Assembly (NCBI GenBank): GCA_020831585.1
Contig: JAFIGE010000043.1
Location: 1 to 34,803, forward strand
Direction: 5' to 3'
From: Opitutales bacterium
GTDB taxonomy: Bacteria; Verrucomicrobiota; Verrucomicrobiia; Opitutales; Oceanipulchritudinaceae
Length of the DNA: 34,803 nucleotides
Notes under the pieces: model-generated
Database searches by the model: none
Seen by the model: the letters and a program-made list of their open reading frames with translations, nothing else
What the model was told of the DNA's origin: nothing
Position numbers and translations under genes: made by a program
Shown: positions 7,831 to 34,803 of the stretch, one piece after another
Numbering within the stretch: the first letter of the stretch is position 1
Layout of the letters: the number at the start of each line of letters is the position of its first letter

Positions 7831-7877
7831 CCGATAGGGATTGCCCTTAGCGGTCCATCCTGATTAGACCTCAGCCA

Positions 7878-8180: not shown

Positions 8181-8196
8181 CGAGGGTCTAAACGCC

Positions 8197-13427: not shown

Positions 13428-14291
13428 ATGAACGACCGGCCCCTGGAGCATTTTGGTCTAAAGGCGCGCCCCTTCGAAATCGTTACTGATCCGCGTTTTT
13501 TCTACGCCAGCCGCGCACACGAGGAGGCGCTCGCGCGTCTGCTGTATTTGGTCGATCAGGAATCCATGTATTTTGGCATGCTCACCGGGGAGATCGGGGC
13601 CGGTAAATCGATCACCCGCCGCGTCTTTGGCGAACGCATCAACCGGCGGCGGCACTATGTTGTCGAATTTGAAAACTCCGCCTTTTCTTTCGGCGAGCTC
13701 ATCCGGAGGCTCCTCGCCAAGGCCGGTTATGAACCCGCCGTGATCCCCCCGGCAGATGAGATGGCCGCCCTTTTTCAGGCCGTTGCTGATCTCGCCTCGG
13801 CCCTCGGGCGTGAACAGGGGCGGCAACTTGTTCTCCTCTTCGATGAGGCCCAGGATCTCGGCCGGACCGAGCTGGAACACCTCAAGCGCCTCTCCAATCT
13901 GAACGGCGAAATCGAGGGTCGCCTCACTTGCGTGCTCATCGGGCAACCGGAGTTGCGCGCCCAGGTGGCGGCCCTGCCGGCCCTTGACCAGCGCGTGAGC
14001 CTGCGCTTTCATCTGGGCCAGCTCGGGGAAGACGAGGTCGCCCCTTACCTCGGCAACCGCCTGCGCGTGGCCGGTCATGTCGATGGCAAGCTTTTCGACG
14101 AAGCCGCCGTGGCCGCCCTCTATGCCGCCAGCGGAGGGGTCCCGCGCGAAATCAACCGCCTTGCCAAACTCGCCCTCGATGCGGCCGCCTCCAGCGCCAA
14201 GGCACCGATCGGGAAAGACGAAGTGGCCCGGGTCATCAACGATTTGCGCGAACACCAATCCCTCCCGTCCCTCCAACCCTTTGCCCGATGA
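13428..14291 (+). CDS. ExeA/XrtA-associated-type AAA ATPase
   Basis: The 287-residue product opens with HFGLKARPFEIVTDPRFFY, the usual N-terminus of ExeA-like ATPases, then Walker A GEIGAGKS at 54-61 with Lys60, Walker B LVLLFDEAQDL with Asp139-Glu140, and a sensor-like CVLIGQPEL. The C-terminal helical part has SGGVPREINRLAKLAL. Closely similar ATPases accompany exopolysaccharide loci of the PEP-CTERM/exosortase type, where they sit beside the Wzz-like protein. That is so here: its stop overlaps the Wzz-like start by four bases. I infer that it powers or regulates chain-length control or export at the inner membrane. A general-secretion ExeA role is less likely because no secretion genes are nearby. 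Confidence 0.85.
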   Translation: MNDRPLEHFGLKARPFEIVTDPRFFYASRAHEEALARLLYLVDQESMYFGMLTGEIGAGKSITRRVFGERINRRRHYVVEFENSAFSFGELIRRLLAKAGYEPAVIPPADEMAALFQAVADLASALGREQGRQLVLLFDEAQDLGRTELEHLKRLSNLNGEIEGRLTCVLIGQPELRAQVAALPALDQRVSLRFHLGQLGEDEVAPYLGNRLRVAGHVDGKLFDEAAVAALYAASGGVPREINRLAKLALDAAASSAKAPIGKDEVARVINDLREHQSLPSLQPFAR

Positions 14292-16357
14292 GCGAACAAC
14301 CTCCTTTGCGTGTGAGCGACTGGAAGCGCGGCGAGTCTTCTTCGTCGGGGAAAGATCCCGGACCCCCGCCGCCGCCCCGCCCGACTTCTGGCCAACCTCC
14401 GCCCGCAGGCTCACCGCCCCCCCCCCCGCCATCCGGCAAGCCCCCGCCCGCTGATCCGGCGACCAAGCCGCCCCCCGCCTCCGGTTTTCCGCTCCCCAGG
14501 ACGGTCTTTTTCGGCTTTGACCTTCTCCGTCTGCCCATGGGCCTTCTCCGGCGTTGGTGGCTCCCGGTTCCACTCGCGATCCTCGGCCTGCTCCTGGGCA
14601 TCCTTGCCGGGCGGGCTCTCTTTGAGGTTCAGGCCACCACCTCCGCCCGCCTCATGGCCCGTGACCCCGAGGCCTTTGCCGCCAGCCGCACGGCTTACAC
14701 GCCCTCGCGCATTCAGGGAGCCACGCTCCTTCAGGCTCTCGCTGGGCCCCAGGTGGCGGATGCCGTGGCCGCGCGCCTCGGGTGGGAGCTTTCCGCACGG
14801 GAAATCGCCGATATGGTCAGCGTGCAGGAAGTGCGGCGGACCGACTTCGTCGAAATCATTGTCCATGGCCCCCTCACCGCCGGGCAAGCCGCCACCCTCG
14901 CGCAAGTCTGGGCGGAGGAAGCGATCGCCTTCACCAGTTCCCTGCAGGCGCGGGAGAGTGCCGACCTGCGCCTGCACCTGGAGGAGCAGCGCGAAGCCAA
15001 AGACCGCGAACTGGCCGCCACCAATGCCCGCATCGCCGCTCTCCGCGAAGACACCGGGGTGATTGATGCACAACGCGAAATCGAGGCCTACCTGCGTTCT
15101 CTTTCCGGGCACAACGAGGAGTTTGAGTCCAACCGCGTCGACCTCGATGCGCTCGATTTTCAACTGGCCGCGCTCCGCCGGGAAATCCGCAAGCACAGCC
15201 CCGGCTTTGAGGAACTAAAGGCAGAGGAAGCGCGGCTGGAGGAACTGGCCGAGTACTACACCGAGCAAAATCCGCTCTTCCGCGACGCGCAGGACCGCGT
15301 GGAGGCTCTGCGGCGACGGGTTTTGCGGGGCCTCGAGGCCGAGGAGATCGAATTTTCCGAGTTTACCGGGACCTATGTGGGCAACGCCCTCTACCTGCAA
15401 ATCCTGGAATTGGAATCGCGCCGGAAAGCCCTCCTCCTGCGCCAGGAGAAGCTTGAAGCCCTCCGCGCCTCCGCACGCGAGCGTCTTCGCGGCCTGCCCG
15501 ATGTCGCCCTTGAGGCCGGTCGCCTCATGGAGAGCGCCCAATCCCTCCGCGCGTCCCGCGATGCCCTCGCCAACCGCCTGCAGGAGGTCGCCAGTTTTGA
15601 GGAGCGCGCCCCCGGTTATTATCGCATTTTCCGCGTTCCCTCGGCACGCGATGTCTATGTCGGCTCAAACACGAAAAAGCTTCTCTTCCTCGGCGTCTTC
15701 GGAGGGGCGGTTTTTTTCGGCCTCGGTTTGCTCGGGGCCGGGGTCTTGGAATTCTTCGATGGCACCCTCCGCACGCCCGCGGAAGCAGCGGAAATCTTCG
15801 CCACCTCCGCGATTGGGCGCGTTTCCCCTCAACCGGCCTCCACTCCCGCCGCTGAAGCCCTCACCGCGCAAGATCTCTGGGCGCGCGTTCTCGGCCCCCT
15901 TGAGTCCGGACGCACCCGTGTCTTCTGGTGCCCCCAGATCCACCCGGCAGAGGACCGCTTCTGGGAACGCATGGCCGCCGCCGCGACGGCTCTGGGGATA
16001 CGCCCGCTTGTCTTCCACACGCCCGAATCCGCCGTCGCCTCGTTGGAGGTCTATGCGCCTCTTGAGGATGGGCCACCGGAGGACGCCTCCGTCGACACCA
16101 CTCCCCGCCGCCGCCTCTGCACACCCGCTGATCTGAGTTTCCCGCTTCCGCGCGAAGGGGCTTTGCGGGCGGACTTTCCCGAGATCTGGGTGGTTCTCCA
16201 TGGCCCGGTCCGTGAGCCCATGGGCAAACTGCTCCGCCAAGCCCCCGACCTCTTTATTCTCTGCGCCCTCGACCACACGGAAAAGAGCTTTTGGCACCTG
16301 CAGGCTTCTCTGCTCCGCGAGCCCGGCAACCTCCGCGGCCTCGTCGGGCTCGGTTGA
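14288..16357 (+). CDS. Wzz/GumC-type chain-length determinant with a P-loop-less kinase-like tail
   Basis: The 689-residue product has a proline-rich cytosolic N-terminus (about 22-66), a first membrane helix at about 91-112, and a long periplasmic region with coiled coils (LRLHLEEQREAKDRELAA, ILELESRRKALLLRQEKLEA). A second membrane helix lies at about 465-489, followed by a cytosolic domain from about 530. This is the topology of inner-membrane polysaccharide co-polymerases that set chain length. The C-terminal domain follows the order of a bacterial tyrosine-kinase domain (strand VFWCPQIHPAEDRFWERMA where Walker A would be, later FPEIWVVLHGP and DLFILCALDHTEKSF), but has no GxxxxGKS/T. It has no Tyr cluster at its end. 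I read it as a catalytically inactive remnant. The gene overlaps the ATPase gene by four bases and closes the operon. Confidence 0.85.
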   Translation: MSEQPPLRVSDWKRGESSSSGKDPGPPPPPRPTSGQPPPAGSPPPPPPSGKPPPADPATKPPPASGFPLPRTVFFGFDLLRLPMGLLRRWWLPVPLAILGLLLGILAGRALFEVQATTSARLMARDPEAFAASRTAYTPSRIQGATLLQALAGPQVADAVAARLGWELSAREIADMVSVQEVRRTDFVEIIVHGPLTAGQAATLAQVWAEEAIAFTSSLQARESADLRLHLEEQREAKDRELAATNARIAALREDTGVIDAQREIEAYLRSLSGHNEEFESNRVDLDALDFQLAALRREIRKHSPGFEELKAEEARLEELAEYYTEQNPLFRDAQDRVEALRRRVLRGLEAEEIEFSEFTGTYVGNALYLQILELESRRKALLLRQEKLEALRASARERLRGLPDVALEAGRLMESAQSLRASRDALANRLQEVASFEERAPGYYRIFRVPSARDVYVGSNTKKLLFLGVFGGAVFFGLGLLGAGVLEFFDGTLRTPAEAAEIFATSAIGRVSPQPASTPAAEALTAQDLWARVLGPLESGRTRVFWCPQIHPAEDRFWERMAAAATALGIRPLVFHTPESAVASLEVYAPLEDGPPEDASVDTTPRRRLCTPADLSFPLPREGALRADFPEIWVVLHGPVREPMGKLLRQAPDLFILCALDHTEKSFWHLQASLLREPGNLRGLVGLG

Positions 16358-16942: not shown

Positions 16943-17938
16943 TCAGTGCCGTTTCACAGCTGACACGATTGCCTCGGAATCCGCCCCGCCCGCCTCAACA
17001 ACCGCTTTGGCTTTCCTTCCCCTCCGATAGCCCAGCCAACCATTCGCCGCACAGAAGCTCTCCACCCACGCAAACGAACCGACCACCCAGCTCTCGCTGA
17101 AAGCGCGGATCTTCGAGAGAAGCCGCGATCCCTCGGTCACACCGACTCCCTGCCTATCCTTACCCTCCGCCTCCCCGGAAGGTCTCTGGTCGGCTAGCCG
17201 GCGAGGACGCTCTCCCGGGCCCATGCGGCTGCACAAACGCGCCCGGTAGCGCTCATGCCATTGGGTCGTCCAGGACGGCTTGCCCTCGACCCGCGCGATC
17301 CCCCGTCGTGCGGCCGACTCACCCGCGCAGGCCTCCCCAAAACCACTGAAAGTATAGTCGGCGGCCTCCTCGACCAATCCTGCCCGCACCGGGTTCAAGT
17401 CGATATACGCCGCCACCATTCTTTGCGCCTCTGTATCCGCCTCCACCACAACGCTGCGGAACCGCTCCGCCCAGAAAGTCCCCACCGTGCCGTGTTTCCG
17501 GTTATACCACAGGGTAAAGCGCGTCTTCACCTCCCGCATGAAGACCGAGACCTCGCTCATCCGCGCCTTCAGGCGTCGCCGGATCCCCTCCGCGGAGTTT
17601 CTGTTCTTCGCCAGAATCACCTCCAGCTCCTCGGCCTTCAAGCCTACCGAAGCGCAGCGCGTTGCACCATAGAGCGCCCGAAAGCGCCGGACCAGACTGG
17701 CGTCATCCAGATTCTCTGTTTCCTTCGGATCGAGCCGCACGAAGATGTGAAAGTGATTGGCCAAAAAGCAATACGTCAGCACCTCCATTCCCGCAAACGC
17801 CGCCTGCGAGCGCATTATCTGGCGCATGGCCTCCATCGCCTCCTCATCCATCAGCATCCTCTTCTGCACCACCCTCGAAATCAGGTGATGGCACGCCAAA
17901 CGCGGATACCTCAATCTCCGACAGTATTTCCTGCTCAT
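16943..17938 (-). CDS. REP-associated tyrosine transposase (RAYT, Y1/IS200-like)
   Basis: The 331-residue product is an HUH-type Y1 transposase. The metal-binding HUH pair is His62 and His64 in ANHFHIFVRL, and the catalytic tyrosine is Tyr178 in AAYIDLNPVRAGL, a block typical of RAYTs. TVGTFWAERFRSVVVE precedes it. The C-terminal 120 residues beyond the core are basic and unassigned, longer than minimal IS200 transposases. The ATG at 17938 was preferred because MSRKYCRRLRYP starts the conserved domain; an in-frame ATG at 17992 would add 18 residues from an AT-rich leader. Neither has a Shine-Dalgarno sequence. RAYTs nick and mobilise palindromic repeats in trans rather than moving as an ordinary insertion sequence. 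A full repeat of this type abuts its 3' end. Confidence 0.9.
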   Translation of the reverse strand: MSRKYCRRLRYPRLACHHLISRVVQKRMLMDEEAMEAMRQIMRSQAAFAGMEVLTYCFLANHFHIFVRLDPKETENLDDASLVRRFRALYGATRCASVGLKAEELEVILAKNRNSAEGIRRRLKARMSEVSVFMREVKTRFTLWYNRKHGTVGTFWAERFRSVVVEADTEAQRMVAAYIDLNPVRAGLVEEAADYTFSGFGEACAGESAARRGIARVEGKPSWTTQWHERYRARLCSRMGPGERPRRLADQRPSGEAEGKDRQGVGVTEGSRLLSKIRAFSESWVVGSFAWVESFCAANGWLGYRRGRKAKAVVEAGGADSEAIVSAVKRH

Positions 17939-18039
17939 TTCGCAATCCAGCCCACAATTAAAAGCCAAAGTCAAGATAAATGTTCTGAACATTTAATTTT
18001 TTGGACTGACCAAATCGAGCTGGAAGCGGGATGAGTGCG

Positions 18040-19787: not shown

Positions 19788-20918
19788 ATGGGTGAATGTC
19801 TTTATTTTCCGGATCGCCCGGCGGAGGTGGATTCGCGGGCGGGCGAGGGGGCGTCCTTGGCGGCGTTGCGCGGGCGGATTGATGGTTACCTCTCTTGGCT
19901 GAGGAAAGAAGCCGCGGGCCTCACGGGGCTGAGGGGGCTCCTTCTCGGGGGCGGCTATGGTCGCGGGGAAGGTGGCGTGTGGTGGCCCGCCGGGGAGGCG
20001 GCACCGGAGCTTTACAATGATATGGAATTCTACCTCTTCGCCGCTGGCGTGGCTCCGGGTGTAGTGGATAAGTGGATACATGAAGGGGAGGCGCGGCTGG
20101 GCATCGAAATGGAGTTCAAGGTGATGGCCCCGGAGGCTTTCGCGGGCGCGCGACCGAGTATGTTTTATTACGATCTGCTCAAGGGGCATGTGCGCGTGGC
20201 GGGGAGCGCGGAGTGGGTCGCGGGTTTGCCCGGGCAGCTTTCGGAGGCGGCACAGATTCCCGTGGAGGAAGGATCCCGCTTGCTCGTGAACCGCGGTATG
20301 AGCCTTTTCCGGTGCCTGCGCTGGAGCGCGGGGGAAGGAGAGGGGGAGGGTGTTTTTTGCGACCGCATAGCAGCCAAGCTGCGCATGGCTTTAGGCGATG
20401 CCGTACTCTGCTTGAATGGGCGCTACACCGTCTCCTGCCGGGAGCGGAATGCGCGTTTGAGCGAAGTCCGGAGGACGCCGCCGGATTGGCCCGTGATCCG
20501 GGAGGGGCACGCGGAGGGGGTTGTCTTCAAGTTTCGTCCGTCGGCTTCGGGGCGTTCGGCGGCGGATTGGCAAGGGCCGCTGCGGGAGCTGCAGGCGATT
20601 TGGCTGCGCACCTTCCTCTGGCTGGAGGGGGAGCGGCTGGGGACGACCTTTGCTGATGCGCGCGCTTATACGGCTTATTCCGGGCGGCTCTTTCCGGAGG
20701 AGGCGGCCTGGAAGAATGTGCTTCGGCAGGTGCGCGATCTGCGCCGCCCGGTGCGGTTGCCCTTCAGCGGGGGCGAGCACCCGCGCGCGCGGGTCTGGCG
20801 GGCCATGGCTTTTCTCATGGCCGGTGACGCGGCGGGGGCGCAGGCCCAGTTGGGCGTCCGGCTGGAGGGGGCGGCCCTTGAGGAGGCCTGCCGCGCGGCT
20901 TGGAAACACTATCCTTAA
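19788..20918 (+). CDS. Nucleotidyltransferase-like protein of polysaccharide locus, function unknown
   Basis: The 376-residue product has LLLGGGYGRGEGGV (about residues 51-64) followed 13 residues later by YNDMEFYLF. This resembles the glycine-rich turn and acidic strand of the Pol-beta-type nucleotidyltransferase fold, with Asp78 and Glu80 where the metal-binding carboxylates would be. A third carboxylate may be Glu109 or Glu111 in IEMEFKVM. The C-terminal two thirds are helical with no motif I recognise. It starts a three-gene plus-strand group with a GT2 (22 nt downstream) and a GT8-like gene, so a part in glycan synthesis or modification is inferred. There is no strong Shine-Dalgarno sequence. 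I cannot name a substrate. Confidence 0.65.
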   Translation: MGECLYFPDRPAEVDSRAGEGASLAALRGRIDGYLSWLRKEAAGLTGLRGLLLGGGYGRGEGGVWWPAGEAAPELYNDMEFYLFAAGVAPGVVDKWIHEGEARLGIEMEFKVMAPEAFAGARPSMFYYDLLKGHVRVAGSAEWVAGLPGQLSEAAQIPVEEGSRLLVNRGMSLFRCLRWSAGEGEGEGVFCDRIAAKLRMALGDAVLCLNGRYTVSCRERNARLSEVRRTPPDWPVIREGHAEGVVFKFRPSASGRSAADWQGPLRELQAIWLRTFLWLEGERLGTTFADARAYTAYSGRLFPEEAAWKNVLRQVRDLRRPVRLPFSGGEHPRARVWRAMAFLMAGDAAGAQAQLGVRLEGAALEEACRAAWKHYP

Positions 20919-22619: not shown

Positions 22620-23000
22620 GTTTGCGACCTTGTTATCTTCTGCAAAAAACTCCTCAACAAGGGTGATAACGCGGCGCGGGCTGAAGGGTTTGGCAAGAAG
22701 GCGGGCGTTTTCGATCTGCCCGATGCGCGCGAGGATCCCTTCCTCCATCTCACCGGTGACAAAAATGGTCGGCATTTGAGGCTTACCGAGAAGATCGCGC
22801 AGGGCATGGGAGAGGTCCGCTCCGTTCAGCCCCGGCATGTTGTAATCGAGAATCGCGAGATCGGGATCGATGCCCTTGGCACGACCGAGGGCCTCCTCGC
22901 TGTTTTGGAAATAATAGGCGCTGTAGCCGGACCGACGCAACTGCACTTCGTAGAGCCGGATCATCACAACATCATCATCAACAACCAGAATTCTTTTCAT
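22599..23000 (-). CDS. Stand-alone response-regulator receiver protein
   Basis: The 133-residue product is a single CheY-like domain: acidic DDD at residues 8-10, phospho-acceptor Asp52 in AILDYNMPGLNG, the conserved Thr in TIFVTGEM and Lys in LLAKPFSP. No output domain follows, only a short polar tail. It is the last gene of the minus-strand signalling operon, and its ATG overlaps the stop of the HATPase-SpoIIE gene. A receiver directly coupled to an RsbU-type phosphatase could gate that phosphatase or be the end point of the phosphorelay from the upstream kinases. That is inference. The leader is pyrimidine-rich without a Shine-Dalgarno sequence. Confidence 0.9.
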   Translation of the reverse strand: MKRILVVDDDVVMIRLYEVQLRRSGYSAYYFQNSEEALGRAKGIDPDLAILDYNMPGLNGADLSHALRDLLGKPQMPTIFVTGEMEEGILARIGQIENARLLAKPFSPRRVITLVEEFFAEDNKVANSTESQP

Positions 23001-24715
23001 AGGGAAGGGGTAAGGCGAGTGAGAACAACAAGGGTTTCGTCGTCGCGGTTGGCCGGGTTACCGGACGCGCGGGAAAGGCTGTGGAACTCCTTGATGAGCT
23101 CGGCGGGGGATTGTTTGGCGCGCGCCTTCAGCCAATCCACGAGAGCCTCCCATCCGAACATTTCGCCGTCTGGACGGGTCCATTCAAAGAGGCCATCGGT
23201 GACGAAGAGGCAGCGGTCACCGGGATCGAGAGCGAGGTTTTGCGCCTCAAATTGATGGCCGCGAAAGAGACCGATAGGCGGGTTGAGCGCGCCGATTTCC
23301 TCATGGCGTCCGTTGGCCCGGAGCACAATGACCGGGGGGTGACCGGCGGAGGCGAGGCGAATAGAACCGGATGCGGGATCGAGGCGGAAGACGATGGCGG
23401 TGATGAACATTGTCTGCCGGTTCAATTGGCGTTCCAGGCTTTCGTTTATGTGTTCAAGGAAAGCCCCGGGGTCGGTGTGGGTGCGGGCGAAGCCAAGGAA
23501 GTGACTGCGGAAAATCCCCGCGAGGATGGCCGCCGTGACCCCCTTGCCCATGACGTCGATAATGCAGCCAACGAGGGTGCCACGGGTGGCCGGACGGATT
23601 TCCGCAAAGTCGCCCGCGACCTCCTGCGCGGGATCACAGCGGACAAAGAGCTGCCAGCCGGGAACCTCCGGCGGAGCCGTATCGAGTGGCAGGAGTTGTT
23701 GCTGAAGTTGCGTGGCGATGCGCCATTCATGGCGCACGCGGTCGCGCTCCGCCCGCTCCCGGTCCATGATGGAACGCGAAAGGGCCAAACCGAGGATATT
23801 GGCGACGGCCTGTATTTGCCGCACCTGCCGGGATCCGAGGGACTCACCTCCTGAGGTTTGGCCAACGGCAAGGAGGGCGACGGTGGTTTCGTTGTGGCGG
23901 ATGGGCACGAAGCAACCCTCGGGATGCCACTCCCGCCCATTTTGGAAGCAGGACGGCTGGCCATCCCCGTCTTTCCAGAGGAGGTAGGGATTTTTGGCCA
24001 ATGCCTGCCATACCGATGACCGGGCTTGGCCATAGCGCTGAAAGGCGGTGTCGCGGGCGATCGCGGTCAACTCGGGGAGTTGGGAATCGGGGGCCGTCTC
24101 GACATGGATGTGTTTGGCGTGTCCGCATTCGAGAAAGAGGCGCACTGTCGAGCGGTAGCAGTCGAGAAAAGTGGCTCCCCCGGCAACGGCCTGGCCCAGT
24201 TGATCGTAGAGGGCGAGGTTTTCGTAGCTATCGGCCAACTCATCGAGGATGAGTTCCATGGAGGGATCTTCCGGAGAGACCTCGGGCAGATCCGGATAGG
24301 TCTTCCAGACACGGGCACGGTAGCCGGAGGGCCCCCGCCAGTGCTCCCAGCCGTCGACAAAGGAACGGATGAGAAAAAGCCCGCGTCCACCTTCCGAGAG
24401 CGGATCTTCCGGAAGGTCGGCTTCGGCGGCGCAGGCGGGATCGGGCCCCTCCCCGGGGTCGGCCGTTTCGACAAAGACCGAGGAACCCTCGCTCCACCAC
24501 ACGGCGAGGAGCACGGCCTCTTTGCGGCCCTGCGCACCGTGGTTAATGGCGTTGGCGAGCAGTTCGGTGAAGATGAGTTTCCAGCCTTCAATCTCCTGAT
24601 TCTGGAGACGCAGACTTTCCAGAAACCTGACAAAGCGCTCGCGAAGCGGCCCAATCTCCCGGAGATCGGGGCCGAAGCGGGCTTTGAGAGCCTGGGTTTT
24701 GCGGAAGCTGGGCAT
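22997..24715 (-). CDS. RsbW-like kinase - GAF - SpoIIE/RsbU-type phosphatase fusion
   Basis: The 572-residue product has three parts. Residues about 20-140 are a GHKL ATPase of the anti-sigma-factor kinase type: ELLANAINHG (Glu51, Asn55), ADPGEGPDP with Asp86, and SEGGRGLFLI at 108-117. Residues about 180-315 look like a GAF domain. Residues about 340-570 are a SpoIIE/PPM phosphatase: EVAGDFAEI, DVMGKGVTAA, SAGHPPVIVL, VTDGLFEW and DDETLVVL keep the metal-binding Asp residues. In RsbW/RsbU systems such domains phosphorylate and dephosphorylate a STAS protein; here both lie on one chain. Two STAS domains are encoded at 7878-9360. It is cytosolic, with no membrane helix. It sits 33 nt after the receiver-phosphotransfer gene. 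Confidence 0.92.
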   Translation of the reverse strand: MPSFRKTQALKARFGPDLREIGPLRERFVRFLESLRLQNQEIEGWKLIFTELLANAINHGAQGRKEAVLLAVWWSEGSSVFVETADPGEGPDPACAAEADLPEDPLSEGGRGLFLIRSFVDGWEHWRGPSGYRARVWKTYPDLPEVSPEDPSMELILDELADSYENLALYDQLGQAVAGGATFLDCYRSTVRLFLECGHAKHIHVETAPDSQLPELTAIARDTAFQRYGQARSSVWQALAKNPYLLWKDGDGQPSCFQNGREWHPEGCFVPIRHNETTVALLAVGQTSGGESLGSRQVRQIQAVANILGLALSRSIMDRERAERDRVRHEWRIATQLQQQLLPLDTAPPEVPGWQLFVRCDPAQEVAGDFAEIRPATRGTLVGCIIDVMGKGVTAAILAGIFRSHFLGFARTHTDPGAFLEHINESLERQLNRQTMFITAIVFRLDPASGSIRLASAGHPPVIVLRANGRHEEIGALNPPIGLFRGHQFEAQNLALDPGDRCLFVTDGLFEWTRPDGEMFGWEALVDWLKARAKQSPAELIKEFHSLSRASGNPANRDDETLVVLTRLTPSL

Positions 24716-24748: not shown

Positions 24749-25939
24749 TCAGCGAGGGAAGGTAAAATGGAAGCGGGTGCCCGCCTTCGACGGTTCGGCA
24801 GTCGTTTCCAGACGAAGGGTTTGGGCGAGGATTTGAAGGCCACACGGGCTGATCCCGACGCTGCGCAGGCGCTGGCGCTTGCCCTCTTTGAAGGGCTCAA
24901 AGAAAATGGCGCATTCCTTTGCGTTGAGCGGTTCCCCCGGGACTTCAAGGGTGATCCCCTTGCCTTGTCCGGAGGGGAGCATTGCCCGCACTTCAACCGT
25001 CACCGAGGGGACGTCGTCGATCAAGCCAAGGAAGGCACGGAACAGAAGAAAGAAGAATTGCTCAAGAAGGAGGCGGTCACTTTCTACCGTCGGGGCGGTC
25101 TCCGCACCAGCCAGCGAAATAGCCGGGGAGGGGATGAACTCAGCGGTGCGTTCGGCGGCGGCCTGAAGAATCTCCGCAAGGGGGCAGGGGCTGCTTTCGG
25201 CGACATGCGAGTGGAGACCGCGGCCAAGGGCAAGGACTTGCAGGGCTTCTTCCATCGAAGCAAGCGACCGGCGCATCCAAGCGGAGAAATCCCGCATGGT
25301 GGGGAGGTCCGGTGCATCTTCCTGTAGCTCAATCTCAAGATTTTCGAGGAAGCCGAGGGCCCCTCCGAGCGAGCCGCGCAGATCGTGCAGCGCGGTCGGG
25401 AGGAGGGCGTCAGCCGACATCGCGTTTGTTTCGACTTCCTTTTTTTCGGGAAGTTCCGGTGCGGCGGTTGTGCTCTCTTTCGCGGGCATCGACCGGGCGG
25501 CTGGGGGCTGAGGCAGGGAGTCCTTCGCTGCGGTCCTGGAAAGGTGTTTGGCCACGCAGGCGAGGGTGGGTTGCCGGGAGAGCGGTTTTGTCAGAAAGTC
25601 GTTTGCACCCAGTTGGAAGGCGCGGGTGCGCGATTCGTTGTCGGCCAGCGCCGTGGCAAAAATAATCGGGATGGCCGCCGTGGCGGGGTCTCTTTTGAGG
25701 GCCGCGCAGGCCTCAAACCCGTCCATTTCCGGCATCATCACATCGAGGATAATGAGATCCGGATTTCCTTTGCGGGCGCGTTCCATGGCCGCTTTTCCGT
25801 TCTCCGCGACAAGCACACGGTAGCCCGCATGCGAGAGCATCTCAAAGAGCAGCCCGACATTTGTGGGATGATCATCGGCAACAAGAATAGTTGGCTGGGC
25901 GCTATTTTCCTTCACCGGAATGTTTTGTCGGAGTGGCAT
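24749..25939 (-). CDS. Receiver domain fused to a degenerate histidine kinase / phosphotransferase
   Basis: The 396-residue product begins with a receiver domain (residues about 16-135; Asp66 in LIILDVMMPEMDG, Lys118 in FLTKP). A Pro/Ala-rich linker follows, then a dimerisation-type helix with LHDLRGSLGGALGFLENLE and His185. The C-terminal 180 residues have the layout of a kinase ATPase domain but lack the N-box Asn, where LEQFFFLLFRAFL stands, and lack a DxGxG motif. ATP binding is therefore unlikely. The HD-helix plus dead ATPase fold resembles ChpT/Spo0B-type histidine phosphotransferases. The two hybrid kinases of this operon carry no HPt domain, so this protein could pass phosphate from them to the lone receiver. 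The ATG at 25939 overlaps the upstream kinase gene by 38 nt; no later ATG keeps the receiver intact, and a GTG at 25915 is possible. Confidence 0.82.
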   Translation of the reverse strand: MPLRQNIPVKENSAQPTILVADDHPTNVGLLFEMLSHAGYRVLVAENGKAAMERARKGNPDLIILDVMMPEMDGFEACAALKRDPATAAIPIIFATALADNESRTRAFQLGANDFLTKPLSRQPTLACVAKHLSRTAAKDSLPQPPAARSMPAKESTTAAPELPEKKEVETNAMSADALLPTALHDLRGSLGGALGFLENLEIELQEDAPDLPTMRDFSAWMRRSLASMEEALQVLALGRGLHSHVAESSPCPLAEILQAAAERTAEFIPSPAISLAGAETAPTVESDRLLLEQFFFLLFRAFLGLIDDVPSVTVEVRAMLPSGQGKGITLEVPGEPLNAKECAIFFEPFKEGKRQRLRSVGISPCGLQILAQTLRLETTAEPSKAGTRFHFTFPR

Positions 25940-28900
25940 CGAGGTCGCTCAGAATGCGGTCGATCCGAAAGAGGTCAAGGGAGCCGAGCAGGGGCTTCGC
26001 CCATGCCGGGTAGGCCGCGCGGTGGCGTTCGAGAATGGCCCGCAGCGCAGCCACATCGCCCAGCTCCGCAAAGTCGCGGACGGAAGCGAGGACGCTTGCG
26101 GGCGGTTGGTTCCCCAGGGTGGACGGGGAGGGAGCGGGGGATTCTGTTTCGAGCCATGCGAAATCCAGTGCGGTGCGGATCTTTTCGAGGAGGGCGGCCC
26201 GGTCGATCGGTTTCTCAATGTAGTGGTCGAACAAACGCCGTTCCGTTTGCGGATCCATGGACAGTTCCTGCACGCTTGCAGTCACGGCAAAATAGCGCGT
26301 TTGCGCGGTTTTTTCTTCCCGGCGGGCGGTGCGCACGAGTTCGATTCCGTCCATGAAGGGCATGACCAGGTCGGTCAGAACCAGATCATAGGGGGTGTCC
26401 TTCCGCAGGCACTGGAGACCCCGGAGGCCATTGTTGGCCTCTTCGAGATCGAAACCGAGGGGTTCGAGGATATCCCGGAGGACGGCGCGGTTGTCGTGGA
26501 CGTCATCGACGATGAGAATGCGCCGCTTGCGGCCCGAGTAGCCCCGGATTTTCGAGAGGTCCGTGGCCGTTGCATTGGCGGGCACGGCTGCCGGAGGCGT
26601 GCTTTCTCTCCGGGTCAGGGGAAGCTGAAGGGTGAAGTGGAAGACGGAGCCCACGCCGACCGCGCTTTCGCAGTCAAGGCTACCCCCGAGGAGTTCGACA
26701 AGTTTACGGGAAATGGAGAGACCGAGACCGGTGCCCTCTTCATTGCCCCGCTGCGCGGGCACCTGGTGGAAGGGATTGAAGAGATCCTCGCGCGCTTCCG
26801 GAGGAATGCCAATGCCTGTGTCTTCGACGCGAAAGGTGACCGGTACCGTGCCGTTTGATGCCGCTTCCGCTGTTCCCACCTCGACGACCAACCGGACCGA
26901 TCCTTCCGCAGTGAATTTAACCGCATTGCCGACGAGGTTGAGGAGGATCTGGCGGAGTGCGCGGCCATCGCTTTGCACGATGAGGCTTTCGCCCTCGGTG
27001 CCGCTCCCGTCACGCAAGTCGAAGGCGAGCGACAAACCTTTGCGCGACGCCACCGACTCAAGGATTTCAAGGATTTCGCCGGCGAGGTTGCCGAGGTCGA
27101 TGGGATCGCGGGAAATCTTCACCTGATTGGCCTCGATTTTGGAGAGATCGAGGATGTCGTTGATGAGCGTGAGCAGGTGATGGCCGCTGCGGTGGATGGT
27201 CTCCACCTGGCGCACGAGCGCCCGGGGCAGGGCCTGGTTTTGCAAAAGCAACTGGGTGTAGCCGAGGATGCCGTTGAGGGGGGTGCGGATCTCGTGGCTC
27301 ATGGTGGCGAGGAAGCGGCTTTTCGCGCGGTCGGCGGCCTCTGCCGCGATGCGGGCTTCGCGCAGTTCGCCCTCATCCTTTTCCTGGGCCACACGCAAGC
27401 CCATGGTGGCGGCGGCGGTGCGCAAAAGGTCAACTTCCACCTTGAGCCAGTCGCGTGAGGTGCGGCAGTGATCGTAGCCGATAAAGCCCCAGGTTTGCCC
27501 GCGCACGAAGATCGGGACAATGAGGAGGGACTGAATGCCCTGCTGCTGCAACAAGGGTTGCTCCTGCGGAGGAAAATCGGCCACGTGCCCCACAAGCGGG
27601 CGTCCGGCCGAAAGTTCGCTCTCCCAGCGGGAGGAGTAGTCCGACCAAAGGATGTTTTGGAGTTCGGGCAGATCTATCTGCGGGGCAATGCCCGGAGCGA
27701 CCCACTCCGCCACCTGCGAGCAGGCCGATGCGCCCGTTTCCGGGTGCGCGTGCGAGCGGAAAACGTAGGCGCGGTCGCTGTGCACAGCTTCCCCGAGGAT
27801 GCGCAGGGGTTCTCCCCATCCGCCCTCCAGGAGCCGGTTTGCGAGCACGGCCTGGCCCGCTTCCGCAACCGCCCGAAAGATGCGCAGACTGCGCACGCTT
27901 TCGGTGACATCGCGATAGTGCCACATCAGGCCGGCGGTCCCGCTGGCGTGGTTCACGGGGAGAAAATCCCGCTCCATCCAGCGCCCATTGGCCATCCGCA
28001 AGCGCTCGCCCACCGATGGGTGCTGTCGCTCAACAAGGGCTTCCGTCTGCCTCCGAAAGGCCTCCGGATCGGCAAATGCAGCCGAGGCCTCCTCCGCCAG
28101 ATCGGAACCGTCGCGCCCGATCAGCTTCTCCGCGGCACTCGCGAAAACCGCCTCCAGACTGCGGTTGGCGAGAAGAATCCGGCGTTTGGCATCTTCCACG
28201 ATGACACCCCCGGAAAGGCTTTCGAGGAGAGCGGCAAAGCGCGTCTTTTCCAACTCCAGGGCACCTCTCGTTTCGTTGAGCAGTTCTTCCCGGCCAATCG
28301 CTTCGGCCACGATGGAGAGCAAGGCGCGGATGTCCTCATTCTCGGCCACGTCCCGCCCGAAAACCACACAGATCGAGCCAAGCGCCCGCCCATCGCAATA
28401 GACGCGGTGGCCCACGTAGGTTTGCAATTGATAGCGGGCGACGTTTGGATCGCTTGTGCGGTAGAGCGTGTTCTGCAAATCCCGCTGGTGAAGGAAGCCC
28501 TCGGCGGAGCGAATAACATCAAAGCAGAGATGCCCTTCCGGCTTGTCTCGCGGGTCATAGCCGGGGGGTGTTTGCCATTGCCCCCGCGATACGAGGAGAT
28601 CGCCTTCGAGGCGGTTATAGAGGGCACAATCGGCGCGGAAAAGCTCACCCGCAAGAGCCGTCAGGCTATTCAGGTTGGCATCAAAGTCGGCTCCCAACCC
28701 CAGAATGGTTTCGTTGATCTGGCGAAGCTGGCGGCGGTGTTGTTGGGCGTGCTCTTTGGCGAGGCGGCGCCCCGAAATGTCGTATTGGATGGCAACAAAT
28801 CCCTGGAAGACACCATCGGCATCAAAAAGGGGATCCGCGTGGACTTCCACCCAGTAGGCCTGTCCGGATTTGTGGTGGTTGAGCAACTCCTCGCGAAAGG

Positions 28901-29168
28901 ACCGGCGGGTCGTGATGGCCGCGCGGATTCGCTGACGCGCCTCGTCGTTACGGTCTTCCTCCCGCTGGAGGAGCCTCCCCGGTTTTTCCCCGATCGCCTC
29001 GGATGGGGTGTAACCGGAAAGGGTGGTGAAGGCCTCGTTAACCCAGCGGATGTGTTCCTCCGCATCGGTGATGATGACACCGTTGCGCGTGTGCCGGGCC
29101 ACTTTTGCGAGGGTGGCATCGTCAACTTCCAGGCGGGGTGCCGCGTCTCTGGAAGGGTGTTTATCCAT
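25902..29168 (-). CDS. Cytosolic hybrid sensor histidine kinase (PAS-GAF-PAS-GAF-HK-REC)
   Basis: The 1088-residue product has no membrane helix. In order: PAS (about 17-135, with GVIITDAEEHIRWVNEAF), a GAF-like domain (about 150-300), a second PAS (about 310-425, GGVIVEDAKRRILLANRS), a second GAF (about 430-600), then the kinase core with SHEIRTPLNGI (His625), [24 protein letters not shown] and GTGLGLSISRKLVE. A receiver with Asp933 in LVLTDLVMPFMDG follows, and a helical tail that is not an HPt domain. It would autophosphorylate on His625, pass phosphate to Asp933, and then need an external phosphotransferase. Its ATG overlaps the stop of the hexapeptide gene by eight bases. The ligands of the GAF domains are unknown. 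A 573-codon open frame on the opposite strand is a shadow. Confidence 0.92.
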   Translation of the reverse strand: MDKHPSRDAAPRLEVDDATLAKVARHTRNGVIITDAEEHIRWVNEAFTTLSGYTPSEAIGEKPGRLLQREEDRNDEARQRIRAAITTRRSFREELLNHHKSGQAYWVEVHADPLFDADGVFQGFVAIQYDISGRRLAKEHAQQHRRQLRQINETILGLGADFDANLNSLTALAGELFRADCALYNRLEGDLLVSRGQWQTPPGYDPRDKPEGHLCFDVIRSAEGFLHQRDLQNTLYRTSDPNVARYQLQTYVGHRVYCDGRALGSICVVFGRDVAENEDIRALLSIVAEAIGREELLNETRGALELEKTRFAALLESLSGGVIVEDAKRRILLANRSLEAVFASAAEKLIGRDGSDLAEEASAAFADPEAFRRQTEALVERQHPSVGERLRMANGRWMERDFLPVNHASGTAGLMWHYRDVTESVRSLRIFRAVAEAGQAVLANRLLEGGWGEPLRILGEAVHSDRAYVFRSHAHPETGASACSQVAEWVAPGIAPQIDLPELQNILWSDYSSRWESELSAGRPLVGHVADFPPQEQPLLQQQGIQSLLIVPIFVRGQTWGFIGYDHCRTSRDWLKVEVDLLRTAAATMGLRVAQEKDEGELREARIAAEAADRAKSRFLATMSHEIRTPLNGILGYTQLLLQNQALPRALVRQVETIHRSGHHLLTLINDILDLSKIEANQVKISRDPIDLGNLAGEILEILESVASRKGLSLAFDLRDGSGTEGESLIVQSDGRALRQILLNLVGNAVKFTAEGSVRLVVEVGTAEAASNGTVPVTFRVEDTGIGIPPEAREDLFNPFHQVPAQRGNEEGTGLGLSISRKLVELLGGSLDCESAVGVGSVFHFTLQLPLTRRESTPPAAVPANATATDLSKIRGYSGRKRRILIVDDVHDNRAVLRDILEPLGFDLEEANNGLRGLQCLRKDTPYDLVLTDLVMPFMDGIELVRTARREEKTAQTRYFAVTASVQELSMDPQTERRLFDHYIEKPIDRAALLEKIRTALDFAWLETESPAPSPSTLGNQPPASVLASVRDFAELGDVAALRAILERHRAAYPAWAKPLLGSLDLFRIDRILSDLDATPTKHSGEGK

Positions 29169-30363
29169 GGGTCCCTCCGAGTTCGATGAAGCCGCTTTTC
29201 AAGGGATGCCTGCGCAGGAGGTTTCGCGCCCAGCTCAGGCAAAGCTCGTTCGTCCGGCCAGAGCGGTCGGTGAGCATATAAACGGTGTGCAGCGCCTCCT
29301 CAAATGTGCCCGGTGAGGCCCCCATGACATCGGCATAGCTGAGGGCACCGGGCGTGGCCGCAAGGATGAGGGTGGCCCAGTCTTCGGGCAGGCCTTGCAG
29401 GGCAACGGGTGGGCGGGGGAGGGGACCAAAAAGGGGCAGGCGGCCTTGCCAAACGGCCTTCAGGAGGGGCCGGCGGTGGGCCGGGAGCAAGCCTTTTGGG
29501 AGCGTCCATTGGTTGCCATCGACTCCCGTGAAGGTGTCGCAGGCAACTTGTTTTCCGGTAGCGGCTTTCCGCCACTGCCACCATAGACGGAAGGCCAGCC
29601 AGCGTTCGCCCGGCGAAGCCTGTGGCGGGCGGGTGGGGCCGTTCGCCTGTCCGGCGACAAATTCCTCCAATCGGTCGATGCGGGCGCGGTGCTTCAGATT
29701 CAGCAGCGTGGCGCCTTCCAGAACGGAATCGATGAGATCGGTCTCAGGGCCGAGGTAGGTGCCGTCGCCGAGGTGCGCGCGTTCAATCCGCGCGCCTTCG
29801 CCGACGAGCGCCCCTTCGCCGACCACCGCGTTCGGGCCAATGAGGCAACGCGGACCGATGGAAACGTGGTCGCCGATCCAATAGGGTGGCTGAAGACGGG
29901 CGCTGGGATGAATCTGACAGCCCCGGCCCACTCCCAAATCAATCGGGTATTCGGCAACCTCCTCAGCAAAGCGGGCGAGCCACGTGTGCTCGATCATCTG
30001 CCAGTGATGGATGAGGCCCCATCCTGCCTCCGGCGGGGGGGTGGCCGGCGTGCCGGGGAGGCGGTCGATGGTGTCATCCACCTCCACACCCGCCGGATCG
30101 GCTACGGGGCGAACCTCCCACGCAAGCGGCCAGAGGGTGGCACTCTCCATGGCGAGGCGCACCTCCGCCGGGCGGTCAGCGACATACAGCACGACACGCT
30201 CAACACCCTTGTCCACGGCGTCGTCGAGCCAGTGATAGAGGAGAGATTGCTCCCCCACCTTCCAGAGAGGGAACGGGAGAGAGCGCCTCCACACGGTGTC
30301 CAGCGCGCTCCAGTCCGGGAGGGCGTATTGGCGGGTCGTTGCGGGAGTGGAAACGGTGCTCAT
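29161..30363 (-). CDS. Hexapeptide-repeat protein with N-terminal nucleotidyltransferase-like and C-terminal pseudo-PGT-like regions
   Basis: The 400-residue product has three parts. Residues about 25-115 resemble the GT-A half of sugar nucleotidyltransferases (FPLWKVGEQSLLYHWLDDAV, then GVERVVLYV) but lack the GGxGTRL loop. Residues about 145-225 are left-handed beta-helix hexapeptides (IGDHVSIGPRCLIGPNAVVG and similar). Residues about 270-390 align without gaps to the active-site region of the neighbouring sugar phosphotransferase: LPAHRRPLLKAVWQG against LSIDEFPQFFNVLRG, then LFGPLPRPP against LVGPRPP. His296-Arg297 replace the catalytic Asp-Glu. A PG turn and EEALHTVYML follow, again in phosphotransferase order. 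I read it as a scaffold or regulatory relative of the phosphotransferase. It overlaps that gene by one base, TGATG. Function unknown. Confidence 0.7.
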   Translation of the reverse strand: MSTVSTPATTRQYALPDWSALDTVWRRSLPFPLWKVGEQSLLYHWLDDAVDKGVERVVLYVADRPAEVRLAMESATLWPLAWEVRPVADPAGVEVDDTIDRLPGTPATPPPEAGWGLIHHWQMIEHTWLARFAEEVAEYPIDLGVGRGCQIHPSARLQPPYWIGDHVSIGPRCLIGPNAVVGEGALVGEGARIERAHLGDGTYLGPETDLIDSVLEGATLLNLKHRARIDRLEEFVAGQANGPTRPPQASPGERWLAFRLWWQWRKAATGKQVACDTFTGVDGNQWTLPKGLLPAHRRPLLKAVWQGRLPLFGPLPRPPVALQGLPEDWATLILAATPGALSYADVMGASPGTFEEALHTVYMLTDRSGRTNELCLSWARNLLRRHPLKSGFIELGGTHG

Positions 30364-31109
30364 CAGTAGGCCCCCTTTCCGAGGAGCACGGCCGGCACGG
30401 TTTTGAGGAGAATCCAGAGATCCGACCAGAAGCCCTGCGACTGGATGTATTGGAGGTCGAGGCGCACCTGACCCTCAAAATCGATTTCCGCCCGCCCGCC
30501 GATCTGCCAGAGACAGGTGATGCCCGGTTTGGCGCGGAGGCGGCGGAGGTGCCGGGCCTTGTAGAGAGCCACTTCCTTGGGCACCGGCGGGCGCGGCCCG
30601 ACAAGCGACATCTCCCCCCGGAGGACGTTGAAGAACTGCGGAAACTCATCAATCGAGAGTTTGCGTATCCATTTTCCAATACGGGTGATGCGCGGGTCGT
30701 CCTTCATTTTGAAGGTCACCCCCTCGGCCCCGTGTTGATTGGCTTCGGTGAGATCGGCTTTGATGGCATCAGCATTCACGACCATGGATCGGAATTTCCA
30801 CATCGGAAAGAGCCGTCCCTGTTCGCCCACGCGCATCTGTTTGAAGAGGATGGGGCCGCCGTCCTCCCGCTTGATGGCCCATGCGGTGAAAAGGAAAACG
30901 GGGCTCAGGAGAAGGATCGCGCAGAGACTGCCAACCACATCGACAACGCGCTTGAGTCCATTGGAAAGGGCAATGACCCGCCGCCAGCGGGCGCGCTTCC
31001 GGCGAGCCCGGCGGTTCCAGGTCTCGGCTTCTTTGGAGAGCAGGGCGGAGGCCCAGTAGGGGACCTCCCCGCTTTTGGGGGAGGGTGTATGCGGGGTTTC
31101 AGCGGGCAT
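30363..31109 (-). CDS. Initiating undecaprenyl-phosphate sugar phosphotransferase (monotopic PGT)
   Basis: The 248-residue product is a monotopic phosphoglycosyltransferase. It has a membrane segment at about 55-78 (VVGSLCAILLLSPVFLFTAW), GGPILFKQMRVGEQG, FPMWKFRSM, the catalytic dyad Asp154-Glu155 in LSIDEFPQFFNVLRG, SLVGPRPPVP, AKPGITCLWQIGGR and the C-terminal DLQYIQSQGFWSDLWILLKT. The enzyme transfers a sugar-1-phosphate from a UDP-sugar to undecaprenyl phosphate at the inner membrane, the first step of repeat-unit assembly. It lacks the extra N-terminal membrane domain of WbaP-type proteins. It lies 18 nt after a hybrid kinase gene and overlaps the hexapeptide gene, so it is transcribed with signalling genes rather than with the glycosyltransferases. 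Confidence 0.93.
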   Translation of the reverse strand: MPAETPHTPSPKSGEVPYWASALLSKEAETWNRRARRKRARWRRVIALSNGLKRVVDVVGSLCAILLLSPVFLFTAWAIKREDGGPILFKQMRVGEQGRLFPMWKFRSMVVNADAIKADLTEANQHGAEGVTFKMKDDPRITRIGKWIRKLSIDEFPQFFNVLRGEMSLVGPRPPVPKEVALYKARHLRRLRAKPGITCLWQIGGRAEIDFEGQVRLDLQYIQSQGFWSDLWILLKTVPAVLLGKGAY

Positions 31110-31127: not shown

Positions 31128-34100
31128 TCATCGGGCAGGCGTGTGGAGGTGGCGCGCGAGCGCTTCGCGCAGCTCGGTGAGTTTCACGGGTTTTCTGATA
31201 AAGTCGTCCATGCCCGCTTCGAGGCAGGTGGTGCGGTCCTCCTCCATGGCGTGGGCCGTCATGCCGATGATGGTGCAGCGTGTGCTGCCGGTGGTGCCGG
31301 TATCCTTCTCATCCGCTCGGATGGAGCGGGTCGCTTCGAGGCCATCCATCACGGGCATTTGCACATCCATGAGGATAATGTCAAAAGGTGCCGCGCGGTG
31401 GGCTTGGAGCACCGCCTGGCCGTTTTCCGCCAGCTCTGCGCTGAGGTCGAGCTTGGCCAACAGAGCCTTGGCGACAATCTGGTTGGTGGGGTTGTCTTCC
31501 GCGAGGAGGATGCGCCGGGCGGGCATCTCCGCTGCCGCCTCTGTCTTTTCAGGCGTGGTCCGTTTGTCAGGAGCTTCGGTGAGGGGATCCCTGAGCACGC
31601 GCAAGGGCAGGGTTAAGGAAAAGGTCGAGCCCTCGCCCAATCGGCTCTCCGCGCCGATCTCGCCCCCCATCAGCCCGACCAGTTGCTTCGATATGGCCAG
31701 CCCCAGGCCGGTGCCACCATACCTCCGCGTGTTCGATCCATCGACTTGGCTGAAGCGGTGGAAAAGCAACTTGGCGGCTTCCTCGCTGATACCGATGCCG
31801 GTGTCTTCCACCTCGACGCGCACCTTCGCTGTGTCCTCGGGGGATGCATCCGCCCGCGCGAGGAGCGATGCGCGGAGCCAGACTGTCCCCGTCTCCGTGA
31901 ACTTGATGGCATTCCCCACGAGATTGGTGAGGATTTGCCGCAACCGGTCATCGTCGCCCGCGACCCATTGGGGGAGGGCGGGATCGATTACGAGGTGGAA
32001 GGCGAGTCCTTTCTCCCGCGCTTGCAGCGCCCAGGCATGGGCGAAATCCTTGAGAAGACTTGGGAGGTGCACTGGTTCCTCTTCCAGATCGACCTTGCCT
32101 GCTTCGATTTTAGAGAAATCGAGTATGCCATCGATCAGGCTGATCAGGCTGTTGCCGCTGCTTTGGACGATTTGAGCATAGTGGCGCTGGGTCGGGTCGA
32201 GTTCGGTCTCCATGAGCAGATCCGTCATCCCGATGACGCCGTTCATGGGTGTGCGGATCTCGTGGCTCATATTGGCGAGAAACTCGCTCTTGGCCCGATT
32301 GGCCGTTTCAGCGGCCTGCATGGCCGCGCGCAGAGCATCTTCCATGCGCTTGCGGTCGGTCAAATCAACGTCGATGCAGTAAAACTCGGGCTCTTTGCCC
32401 GGCACCTGCACAAGGGCATGGGATGAATAAACGGTGACGGGCGAGCCATCCTTCCGGCGCAAGGTGAGCTCCGCCGCCGGGATGGGCTTGCCTGTGGCCC
32501 GCATGGCGGCGATCTCCGCTTTCACGGCCTCGCGCATTTCCGTGGGGATGATCAAATCGAGGAGATTTCGGCCCATGGCCTCTTCCGCCGTGTATCCATA
32601 AAAGCGCTCGGAGGCCTCGTTCCAATACCGCACCGTGCCATTCATGGCATAGCCCTGCACGGAGACGGTTTCCACGCACCGGAGGATTTCCCTGAAACGC
32701 TTCTCGCTCTCCCGCAGAGCCGCCTCAGCCGCCATTTTCTCCGAAACATCCCGCGCCACGGCCAACAGGGCGAAGGGCTCGCCATTAGGACGCCGAAGGA
32801 AGGTGCTCGTCATTTGCGTCGGGAAGACCGTGCCGTCCTTGCGCACGTGATCGACCACGCGGGCATCGCCTCCTTCCCTCTGCAATTTTTCCAGAGACGG
32901 CAGGACTTCTTCCTGCATCTTTTTTTCATTATGAAAGATCCGCAGGTGCTGGCCGATCAGTTCGTCCACGCTGCGACCGTGCATTTGCGCCCAGGCATTG
33001 TTGACGAAGCGGATGTTTCCTTCCATGTCCGTCATGGCAATGCCGTCGATGGCCTGCTCGACACCGGTCTTGAACTCGAGCAATTGCTCTTCAAGGCGTT
33101 TTCGCTCGGTCACATCGGCCTCCACGCCAAAGTGGCCCACGATGCGGCCCCTTCCATCGTAGAGGCAGATGTAGTCGCCTTCAATGGTTATGGGGGAACC
33201 GTCCAGTTTCCGCTCATAGGTTTCCGTGTGCCATTGTCCACGGTCGAAGAGTTCACGTGTTATGGATCTGGCTTGGGCTAAATCATGCTGAAACAGTTCC
33301 CTTAAGGTGATGCCGAGCAAATCCCCCTCCTTGGCACCATACTGATAGAGGACCGCTTGGTTGGTCCTCGTCATGCGTTGATGGTCGAGAGCGTATTCGA
33401 TCATCTCGTCTTTGTTGGCTCCCTTGGCATTCCAGTCTATCGGCTTGTCGAGCAGGAAGATATAACAACCATTCAGTGATTGCGAAAAGAATGACTCCAA
33501 AATGCGTTCATTGAAAGCCAGCTTGCGGTTAAGCAGATAACTTCTGGCAAATCCCGCCAGGAGGAACACGGCCAACACGCTGAGGCCGATCAGCCATGGC
33601 CAAAATTGACGGATAAACTGTCCGAAGGTGACGCGGCCATCATCTTCGAAAGGTGGCAGGCGTAAATCACGCAGCAGTTCGCGGATCGGTGTGTAGTCTT
33701 CCGGGGTGTTCCAGCCGACGCTGCTCATCGCCTGCGCCGCCTCATCCTCCGGTTCCATTTGCATGAGGGCCAAGGCAACCTGTTTGGCCAAATGGGGGTC
33801 CGTGCCCGCGAGGGCGGCCAGGGGCCATTCGGGATAGAGCCGGGTGGAGAGCGCGTAGGGGTAGGTGGGATAGTCCGCAGCGCGACTGCCGAGGACCTTC
33901 AACTGCGCCCGATCCAGGAGACCCTCGCTGACCATCCGCTCGATTTGCGTGCTGCGCACCGTGCCCGCGTCGACCTGCCCGGACAGAATTGCTTCGACCA
34001 CCGCATCATGGCTGCCTTTGAAAAGAACTTGCTGCAAACCGCCCCCCGGATGAATGCCCGCTTTGACCAACTCGCGCCAAGCGGCGTGCCATCCCCCAAG

Positions 34101-34745
34101 GGAGTCCGGGCTAACCGCCGCGAAGCGTTTGCCCTGAAGATCCGTCAAGGCATGAAGATCTTCCCGCTCCGCCAAGGTGAGGATCACACCGCCAAAGTGG
34201 GATTTGGGCCCGAAGGGGGTGGGCATCTGGATCGTGAGAATTCTTCGCGCCAGTCCGTGATACTCCAAATAGGCGTAAAGCGACGGATTGGCGGAGACAA
34301 AATCCATTTCCCCCGCGCGCACGGCGGGAATCAGGTCATCAAAACCCAGGGGTACGATTTCGAAAACCCATTCATCAAGCCGATCACTTAAATAAGCGGC
34401 GGTCGGCCCCCATTCCCGCAGGCAGATCTCAAAACCCCGGTTGGCCAAAACCCCGATGCGGACCACCGCCGGGGGTGGCCCGGTGTTGCCTCCGCTTACG
34501 GGCGCAATCGAAGAGGCGCCACCCTCGCTCAAGACAGCAGGCGCGGAGTCGGCCCGGAGATACGCAATCGGCACGATCGATACTGCTGTCAGAAGCGGAA
34601 CAAGCGAGGAAGCCGAAGGGCGGAGCGCCATCCATGCGCGCTTCAGCGCGGCGATTGCCAGCCCCAGGGGAGCGGAGACCCCAAGGGCTTTGTTTCCCCC
34701 CGCGTTTGGCCCTTCCGGAGAGCCCGGCTTTTCCTTTGTTTTCAT
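31128..34745 (-). CDS. Hybrid sensor histidine kinase with PhnD/TtrS-like periplasmic sensor domain
   Basis: The 1205-residue product has a membrane helix at about 48-63, then a periplasmic binding-protein-like domain (about 90-350; [70 protein letters not shown]) of the PhnD/TtrS kind, and a second membrane helix at about 380-402. Three PAS domains follow (about 410-550, 560-685, 690-805), then the kinase core with [11 protein letters not shown] (His828), [23 protein letters not shown] and [14 protein letters not shown] receiver with Asp1127 in [13 protein letters not shown] ends it; no HPt is present. The ATG at 34745 was chosen for AAGGAG four nt upstream; an in-frame ATG at 34772 adds nine residues. 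It heads the signalling operon. The ligand is unknown: relatives sense tetrathionate or oxyanions, but specificity cannot be read here. Confidence 0.9.
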
Positions 34746-34749
34746 GCGA

Positions 34750-34755
34750 CTCCTT
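34750..34755 (-). promoter_or_regulatory. Shine-Dalgarno site of the TtrS-like kinase gene
   Basis: Minus-strand AAGGAG lies four nt before the ATG at 34745. It is the clearest Shine-Dalgarno sequence in the window, where most genes have none, and decides against the upstream in-frame ATG at 34772. Confidence 0.7.
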
Positions 34756-34803
34756 TGAATTTGCCCGCTCACCGTTGCCGCCCTGCTCCCTTTGCCAGCC
34801 AGC

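Follow-up and report, generated by a model that had tools for sequence, protein, structure and literature searches.

We found that a protein of 400 amino acids (here, the companion), encoded directly behind a short phosphoglycosyltransferase (PGT), carries at its C terminus a degenerate copy of the monotopic PGT domain. The two genes lie in a 34,803-nucleotide stretch from an Opitutales bacterium (contig JAFIGE010000043.1), the whole of which we refer to as the window. With moderate confidence, we propose that the companion is a conserved, catalytically dead subunit of the upstream PGT that acts as a scaffold or regulator, probably under partner-switching control. The features of the window on which the analysis draws are as follows.

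31128..34772, minus strand: hybrid histidine kinase with a phosphonate-binding-like sensor, ending 18 bases before the PGT gene.
30363..31109, minus strand: active-type short PGT of 248 amino acids (PF02397, 6.9e-67; WbaP, 1.3e-53).
30645-30650, minus strand: catalytic Asp154-Glu155 of the PGT.
29161..30363, minus strand: companion protein of 400 amino acids (pseudo-nucleotidyltransferase, beta-helix, pseudo-PGT), with its ATG at 30363.
29944..30342, minus strand: companion residues 8-140, shortened nucleotidyltransferase-like domain lacking the GxGxR...PK signature (fold match, VIA).
29653..29931, minus strand: companion residues 145-237, left-handed parallel beta-helix of hexapeptide repeats with no conserved His (PF00132, 3.9e-12).
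29209..29622, minus strand: companion residues 248-385, degenerate PGT (PF02397-like) domain (family-level profile and predicted fold).
29473..29478, minus strand: companion His296-Arg297, aligned with the catalytic Asp-Glu pair (register from homologues in other classes).
25902..29168, minus strand: hybrid histidine kinase (PAS, GAF, HisKA, HATPase_c, receiver), overlapping the companion gene by 8 bases.
24749..25939, minus strand: receiver-domain protein (PF00072, 2.9e-29).
22997..24715, minus strand: protein with HATPase_c_2 (RsbW-type) and SpoIIE phosphatase domains (PF13581, 4e-17; PF07228, 7.1e-44).
7851-8177, plus strand: STAS gene (PF01740), a candidate partner-switching target.
8134-9360, plus strand: WecG/TagA-STAS fusion with the STAS domain C-terminal (PF03808 and PF01740), a candidate partner-switching target.

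The PGT is the upstream gene of the pair, and its stop codon shares one base with the companion start codon (TGATG). Both belong to a run of genes in the same direction from 34772 to ~22599, in the order kinase, PGT, companion, kinase, receiver, RsbW-type/SpoIIE protein, and receiver. A Pfam scan of the 248-amino-acid PGT found no PF13727 accessory domain. Elsewhere in the window are glycosyltransferases, a pyruvyl transferase, the STAS gene, and the WecG/TagA-STAS fusion, and from this content we read the window as an exopolysaccharide locus. The fusion directly follows the separate STAS gene, suggesting that a glycosyltransferase acting later may come under partner switching as well. The same locus contains a Zeta-toxin-like P-loop kinase (5650-6309, minus strand), a DHH-CBS-DHHA2 protein (10511-12181, plus strand), and an IS200-like Y1 transposase (16943-17992, minus strand). 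Two further plus-strand open reading frames had no Pfam match: one of 689 amino acids (14288-16357) and one of 376 amino acids (19788-20918), the latter of which has relatives close to the PGT locus at five of the other sampled loci.

The original prediction had recognized a dead PGT-like region from an ungapped alignment of 22 residues with the neighboring enzyme. That alignment is present as described: companion residues 293-314 (LPAHRRPLLKAVWQGRLPLFGP) match PGT residues 151-172 (LSIDEFPQFFNVLRGEMSLVGP) with 7 of 22 identities, His296-Arg297 falls at Asp154-Glu155 of the 248-amino-acid enzyme, and GPLPRPP, PG, and a Tyr-containing helix follow the motif in the same order as in the true enzyme. 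The identity, however, is not above chance. Of 400 shuffled versions of the companion, 399 reached 7/22 identities at some position of the enzyme, and 25 did so at that very motif. BLASTP of the companion against the neighboring PGT gave no significant match. The companion sequence alone had no PF02397 hit in Pfam, and the matches from Pfam and NCBIfam were of the hexapeptide type only. With both BLASTP and the 22-residue identity test at chance level, we set pairwise similarity aside as evidence for a PGT domain.

At the family level, the relationship becomes significant. Genome searches across the phylum Verrucomicrobiota yielded 25 full-length homologues from the same order; the class supplied more, and other classes of the phylum contributed 50 loci. 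Two family members exceed the Pfam cutoff for Bac_transf, and eight members from other genomes, scanned singly, all match this model below its cutoff. When all sequences in the PDB were queried with a profile built from 46 C-terminal domains, PglC (6.3e-5) and WbaP (~2e-4) were recovered, with the next match at 0.81. The original prediction had called for a profile-profile comparison with the bacterial sugar transferase family. Using hhalign against 16 PGTs, we obtained P 90 and E 1.5e-6 for the 25 C-terminal domains from the order, whereas the highest value among 60 column shuffles was P 7.4. For 35 fuller homologues from outside the class, the comparison gave P 98.4 and E 6.5e-15 over 163 columns, and the highest value among 60 shuffles was P 2.8.

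Structural comparison gave the same answer. A search with the full-length model was filled by matches to the N-terminal fold, and hence the C-terminal domain was predicted alone. The model of residues 237-395 had a pLDDT of 85 and a pTM of 0.78. Foldseek matched it only to WbaP and PglC (probability, 0.99-1.00; E, 2e-3), with the next matches at 0.04-0.05, and VIA gave Z values of 10.0 for WbaP, 8.9 for PglC, and 8.2 for a further match, with unrelated entries at 3.1 or less; the Foldseek E values and the Z values are only of moderate strength, and the model was built on an alignment of relatives. A fold unrelated to monotopic PGTs, the outcome that would have counted against the original prediction, did not occur. 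We conclude that the C-terminal domain is a degenerate monotopic PGT domain, a point on which sequence and structure agree. The term "paralogue," used in the original prediction, is supported only in the broad sense that the two domains have a common ancestry, not in the narrow sense of a duplicate of this very neighbor.

Sharing a sequence profile and a predicted fold with the monotopic PGTs (PF02397; PglC and WbaP), the companion domains differ from them at the active site. When only class members were aligned, the catalytic pair appeared to fall in a gap. This was overturned by the homologues from other classes, which read KLSLDRF or KLSLDKF, versus KLSIDEF in active enzymes, and so fix the register as a substitution. 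None of 81 pseudo-PGT domains has the catalytic Asp-Glu pair. At the Glu position, 59 domains have Arg and 13 have Lys (together 72/81); at the Asp position, 29 have Arg and 25 have Asp, with the remainder varied. In contrast, all 106 neighboring PGTs have Asp-Glu, 100 of them by pattern and the other 6 reading SIDET or SIDEA. A second motif, KFR(S/T)M, was found in 102 of the 106 partner PGTs and in no pseudo-PGT domain, and the aligned block is empty in 46/46 class domains. To judge from these residues, the pseudo-PGT domain is probably catalytically dead. Every family-level test (HMM, PDB profile, profile-profile comparison, fold, and loss of the catalytic pair) agrees on a dead PGT-like domain at residues ~248-385. 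The original prediction was thus right, although its 22-residue evidence alone would not have sufficed.

The N-terminal parts of the companion are also degenerate. VIA matched residues 7-243 to 8x7s with a Z value of 18.0 and to GMPPA/GMPPB and eIF2B with values of about 15-16, in agreement with the prediction that the PGT-like region is fused behind a beta-helix and an NTP-transferase-like domain. Relative to the pyrophosphorylase type, the nucleotidyltransferase part is shortened, with the fold and then the beta-helix present. PF00483 scored above its cutoff in one homologue (L115), and PF00132 was matched by 25/25 members. The GxGxR...PK catalytic signature was found in 0/117 family members.

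These parts bear on an alternative that we consider unlikely, namely, that the companion is an active sugar-modifying enzyme comparable to one half of a split bifunctional PGT-acetyltransferase. The beta-helix would then be an acyl- or acetyltransferase, the pseudo-PGT would dock it to the membrane or to the PGT, and the sugar would be modified during loading, an arrangement corresponding to the substrate channel raised in the original prediction. The beta-helix does match acyltransferase-type NCBIfam models, if weakly, the companion adjoins a PGT, and some PGTs are bifunctional through fusion to a functional domain (PMC10942596). However, the beta-helices of 25 members contain no His that is invariant or 90% conserved, and the closest folds are those of pyrophosphorylases and eIF2B, in which the helix is structural.

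We examined how the companion gene is coupled to the PGT gene across the phylum. In the class, the companion gene immediately follows that of a short PGT, in the same orientation, at 61/66 loci. The corresponding figure for other classes is 26/50, with about 19 more having one short gene between the two; this gene encodes a STAS protein in seven of eight examples examined, one representative being confirmed by Pfam. Five class loci lack an adjacent PGT. Exceptions to the usual order are L067, L070, L071, L100, and genome G028. In the first three, all from one genus, the upstream open reading frame is unrelated to PGTs and, on inspection by eye, looks like a P-loop protein of the uridine-kinase type. 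G028 (L020 / L095), a genome of 1.3 Mb that is ~91% complete, keeps a divergent family member and has no PF02397 match, so the protein there may have a PGT-independent role or may be a relic. Three genomes share a conserved gene immediately after the family gene; it encodes a protein of ~185 amino acids that looks heme-NO-binding-like by eye (L083, 10167-10736; L084, 10076-10630; L086, 8586-9128).

The same loci point to partner switching. In two genomes, G834 and G940, an RsbW/SpoIIAB-like HATPase_c_2 domain is fused to the C terminus of the companion (1.1e-15 and 6.5e-16, respectively), and a STAS gene adjoins the fused gene in both; the fused domain of G940 also matches the spIIAB and RsbW models. 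The window itself encodes all three of an RsbW-like kinase domain, a STAS antagonist, and a SpoIIE phosphatase domain. Its 22997..24715 protein is the best PF13581 match in the genome and is, by its domains, a candidate partner-switching component. Among eight genomes tested, 7 encode a HATPase_c_2 domain no more than 5 kb from the locus and 6 have STAS genes within 7 kb. This proximity is indicative only, since loci of this kind often contain two-component and partner-switching genes, the eight genomes are relatives of one another, and the chance rates rest on hand-read counts. Together, the gene order and the RsbW-like fusions favor a regulator or heteromer partner among the roles raised in the original prediction.

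A plain membrane anchor or scaffold would bring the enzymes of exopolysaccharide synthesis together without controlling the activity of the PGT. Such a role would suit the beta-helix, which lends itself to oligomers, and the hydrophobic stretch of the pseudo-PGT, which in a distant clade retains a Pro and resembles a re-entrant helix. In the clade of the window, however, that stretch is short and rich in Trp and Arg, and an anchor would leave the RsbW-like fusions and the STAS neighbors unexplained. We regard this explanation, too, as improbable.

The history of the pseudo-PGT module indicates which part of the companion is the more constant. The module is missing in 15/66 class members, most of which keep the PGT neighbor, and is thus dispensable in some lineages. 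The N-terminal part, by the same token, is the more constant requirement. In a sixteenth case, L078 (G523), the gene is split into overlapping open reading frames at 4395 and 5005 (plus strand), one for the beta-helix part and one for the pseudo-PGT part. Mapped onto a tree built from the N-terminal part, the presence of the module requires about 7 changes, of which supported branches force at least 4, a pattern that fits an old module lost several times. Nevertheless, the family is conserved across the phylum, in several classes, with open frames in about 100 loci; among three named loci from a contig search, the relatives are Puniceicoccaceae and Coraliomargarita. For groups with computable dS, dN/dS of the C-terminal part was 0.07-0.46 and mostly below 0.3, values that are rough because dS was often high. 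Where measurable, dN/dS was well below 1 in the N-terminal and C-terminal parts, indicating purifying selection on both.

Another possibility is that the pseudo-PGT has gained a different activity or ligand at a rebuilt site, comprising the D-[R/K] motif and the conserved Asp345 and His359. The Asp is kept beside Arg or Lys in 25/81 domains, position 345 is Asp or Glu in 71/81, and position 359 is His in 45/81. Position 359 is Asp in 21/81, however, the class has lost the KFR(S/T)M block, and the module has been lost while the remainder of the protein was kept; we think new catalysis correspondingly doubtful. That the companion is a decaying relic without function is very improbable: the repeated loss of the module in the class and the one split copy could be read in this way, but the open frames across classes, the dN/dS values in both parts, and the conserved gene order disfavor it.

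We therefore return to the companion as a dead subunit of the PGT. The parts of the companion descend from enzymes that act on sugar nucleotides and on lipid-linked sugars, namely, a pyrophosphorylase-type nucleotidyltransferase with its beta-helix and a PGT. The homologies, residue losses, gene coupling, and conservation described above were observed directly, and from them we infer the interactions and regulation that follow. The pseudo-PGT domain would bind the active PGT, the beta-helix would assemble oligomers, and the nucleotidyltransferase-like fold may serve as a ligand sensor or docking surface. Large PGTs have a helix bundle and a non-catalytic domain, the latter of which in WbaP helps dimerization and responds to UMP (PMC10942596). 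The PGT here lacks both. Most simply, the companion would provide in trans the non-catalytic part for oligomerization and ligand sensing that large PGTs carry in cis. With less confidence, we suggest that an RsbU/V/W-type partner-switching module and the neighboring kinases feed this complex, and that the outcome would be posttranslational switching of the first committed step of exopolysaccharide synthesis. The general form of the model, which we advance only tentatively, is that subunits composed of several pseudoenzymes couple partner switching to the initiating PGT throughout the phylum, with the pseudo-PGT forming a heteromer whose state would be set by an RsbW-like kinase and a STAS protein.

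Several known systems resemble parts of this arrangement. GMPPA is a dead paralogue that regulates GMPPB (PMC11228364). Like GMPPA, the companion has a pyrophosphorylase-type nucleotidyltransferase and a beta-helix without the catalytic signature and stands beside an active enzyme (PMC11228364); unlike GMPPA, it has a shortened nucleotidyltransferase and an added pseudo-PGT, and its active neighbor is a PGT rather than a pyrophosphorylase. The PF13727 accessory domain (DUF) of WbaP is likewise a non-catalytic part alongside a PGT, proposed to function in oligomerization and nucleotide sensing (PMC10942596), whereas the companion is a separate protein of different ancestry, for which such a function is conjectural. 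In Myxococcus, the phosphorylated receiver protein EpsW was reported in 2025 to activate the large PGT EpsZ by contact (PMC12802240). Our model similarly has a signaling input acting on an initiating PGT through protein contact, but EpsW is a single receiver domain (PMC12802240) and the companion is a multidomain pseudoenzyme encoded beside kinases and partner-switching genes. In Vibrio fischeri, SypA/SypE control a polysaccharide locus through a STAS protein at a stage later than transcription, the target of SypA being unknown (PMC4517449). STAS genes at a polysaccharide locus are common to both systems; no pseudo-PGT has been described in V. fischeri, which belongs to another phylum.

Pseudoenzyme regulators and regulators of PGTs are thus already known. 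A literature search, covering few subscription journals, found no paper on a dead PGT, a PGT pseudoenzyme, or a pseudo-PGT subunit and none linking a PGT to partner switching. If our reading is correct, the names nucleotidyltransferase and acetyltransferase, given to some family members on the basis of the N-terminal part, are probably wrong. Encoded beside the initiating PGT and fused to an RsbW-like domain, a pseudo-PGT subunit would give the question of SypA-type control (PMC4517449) a concrete, testable target.
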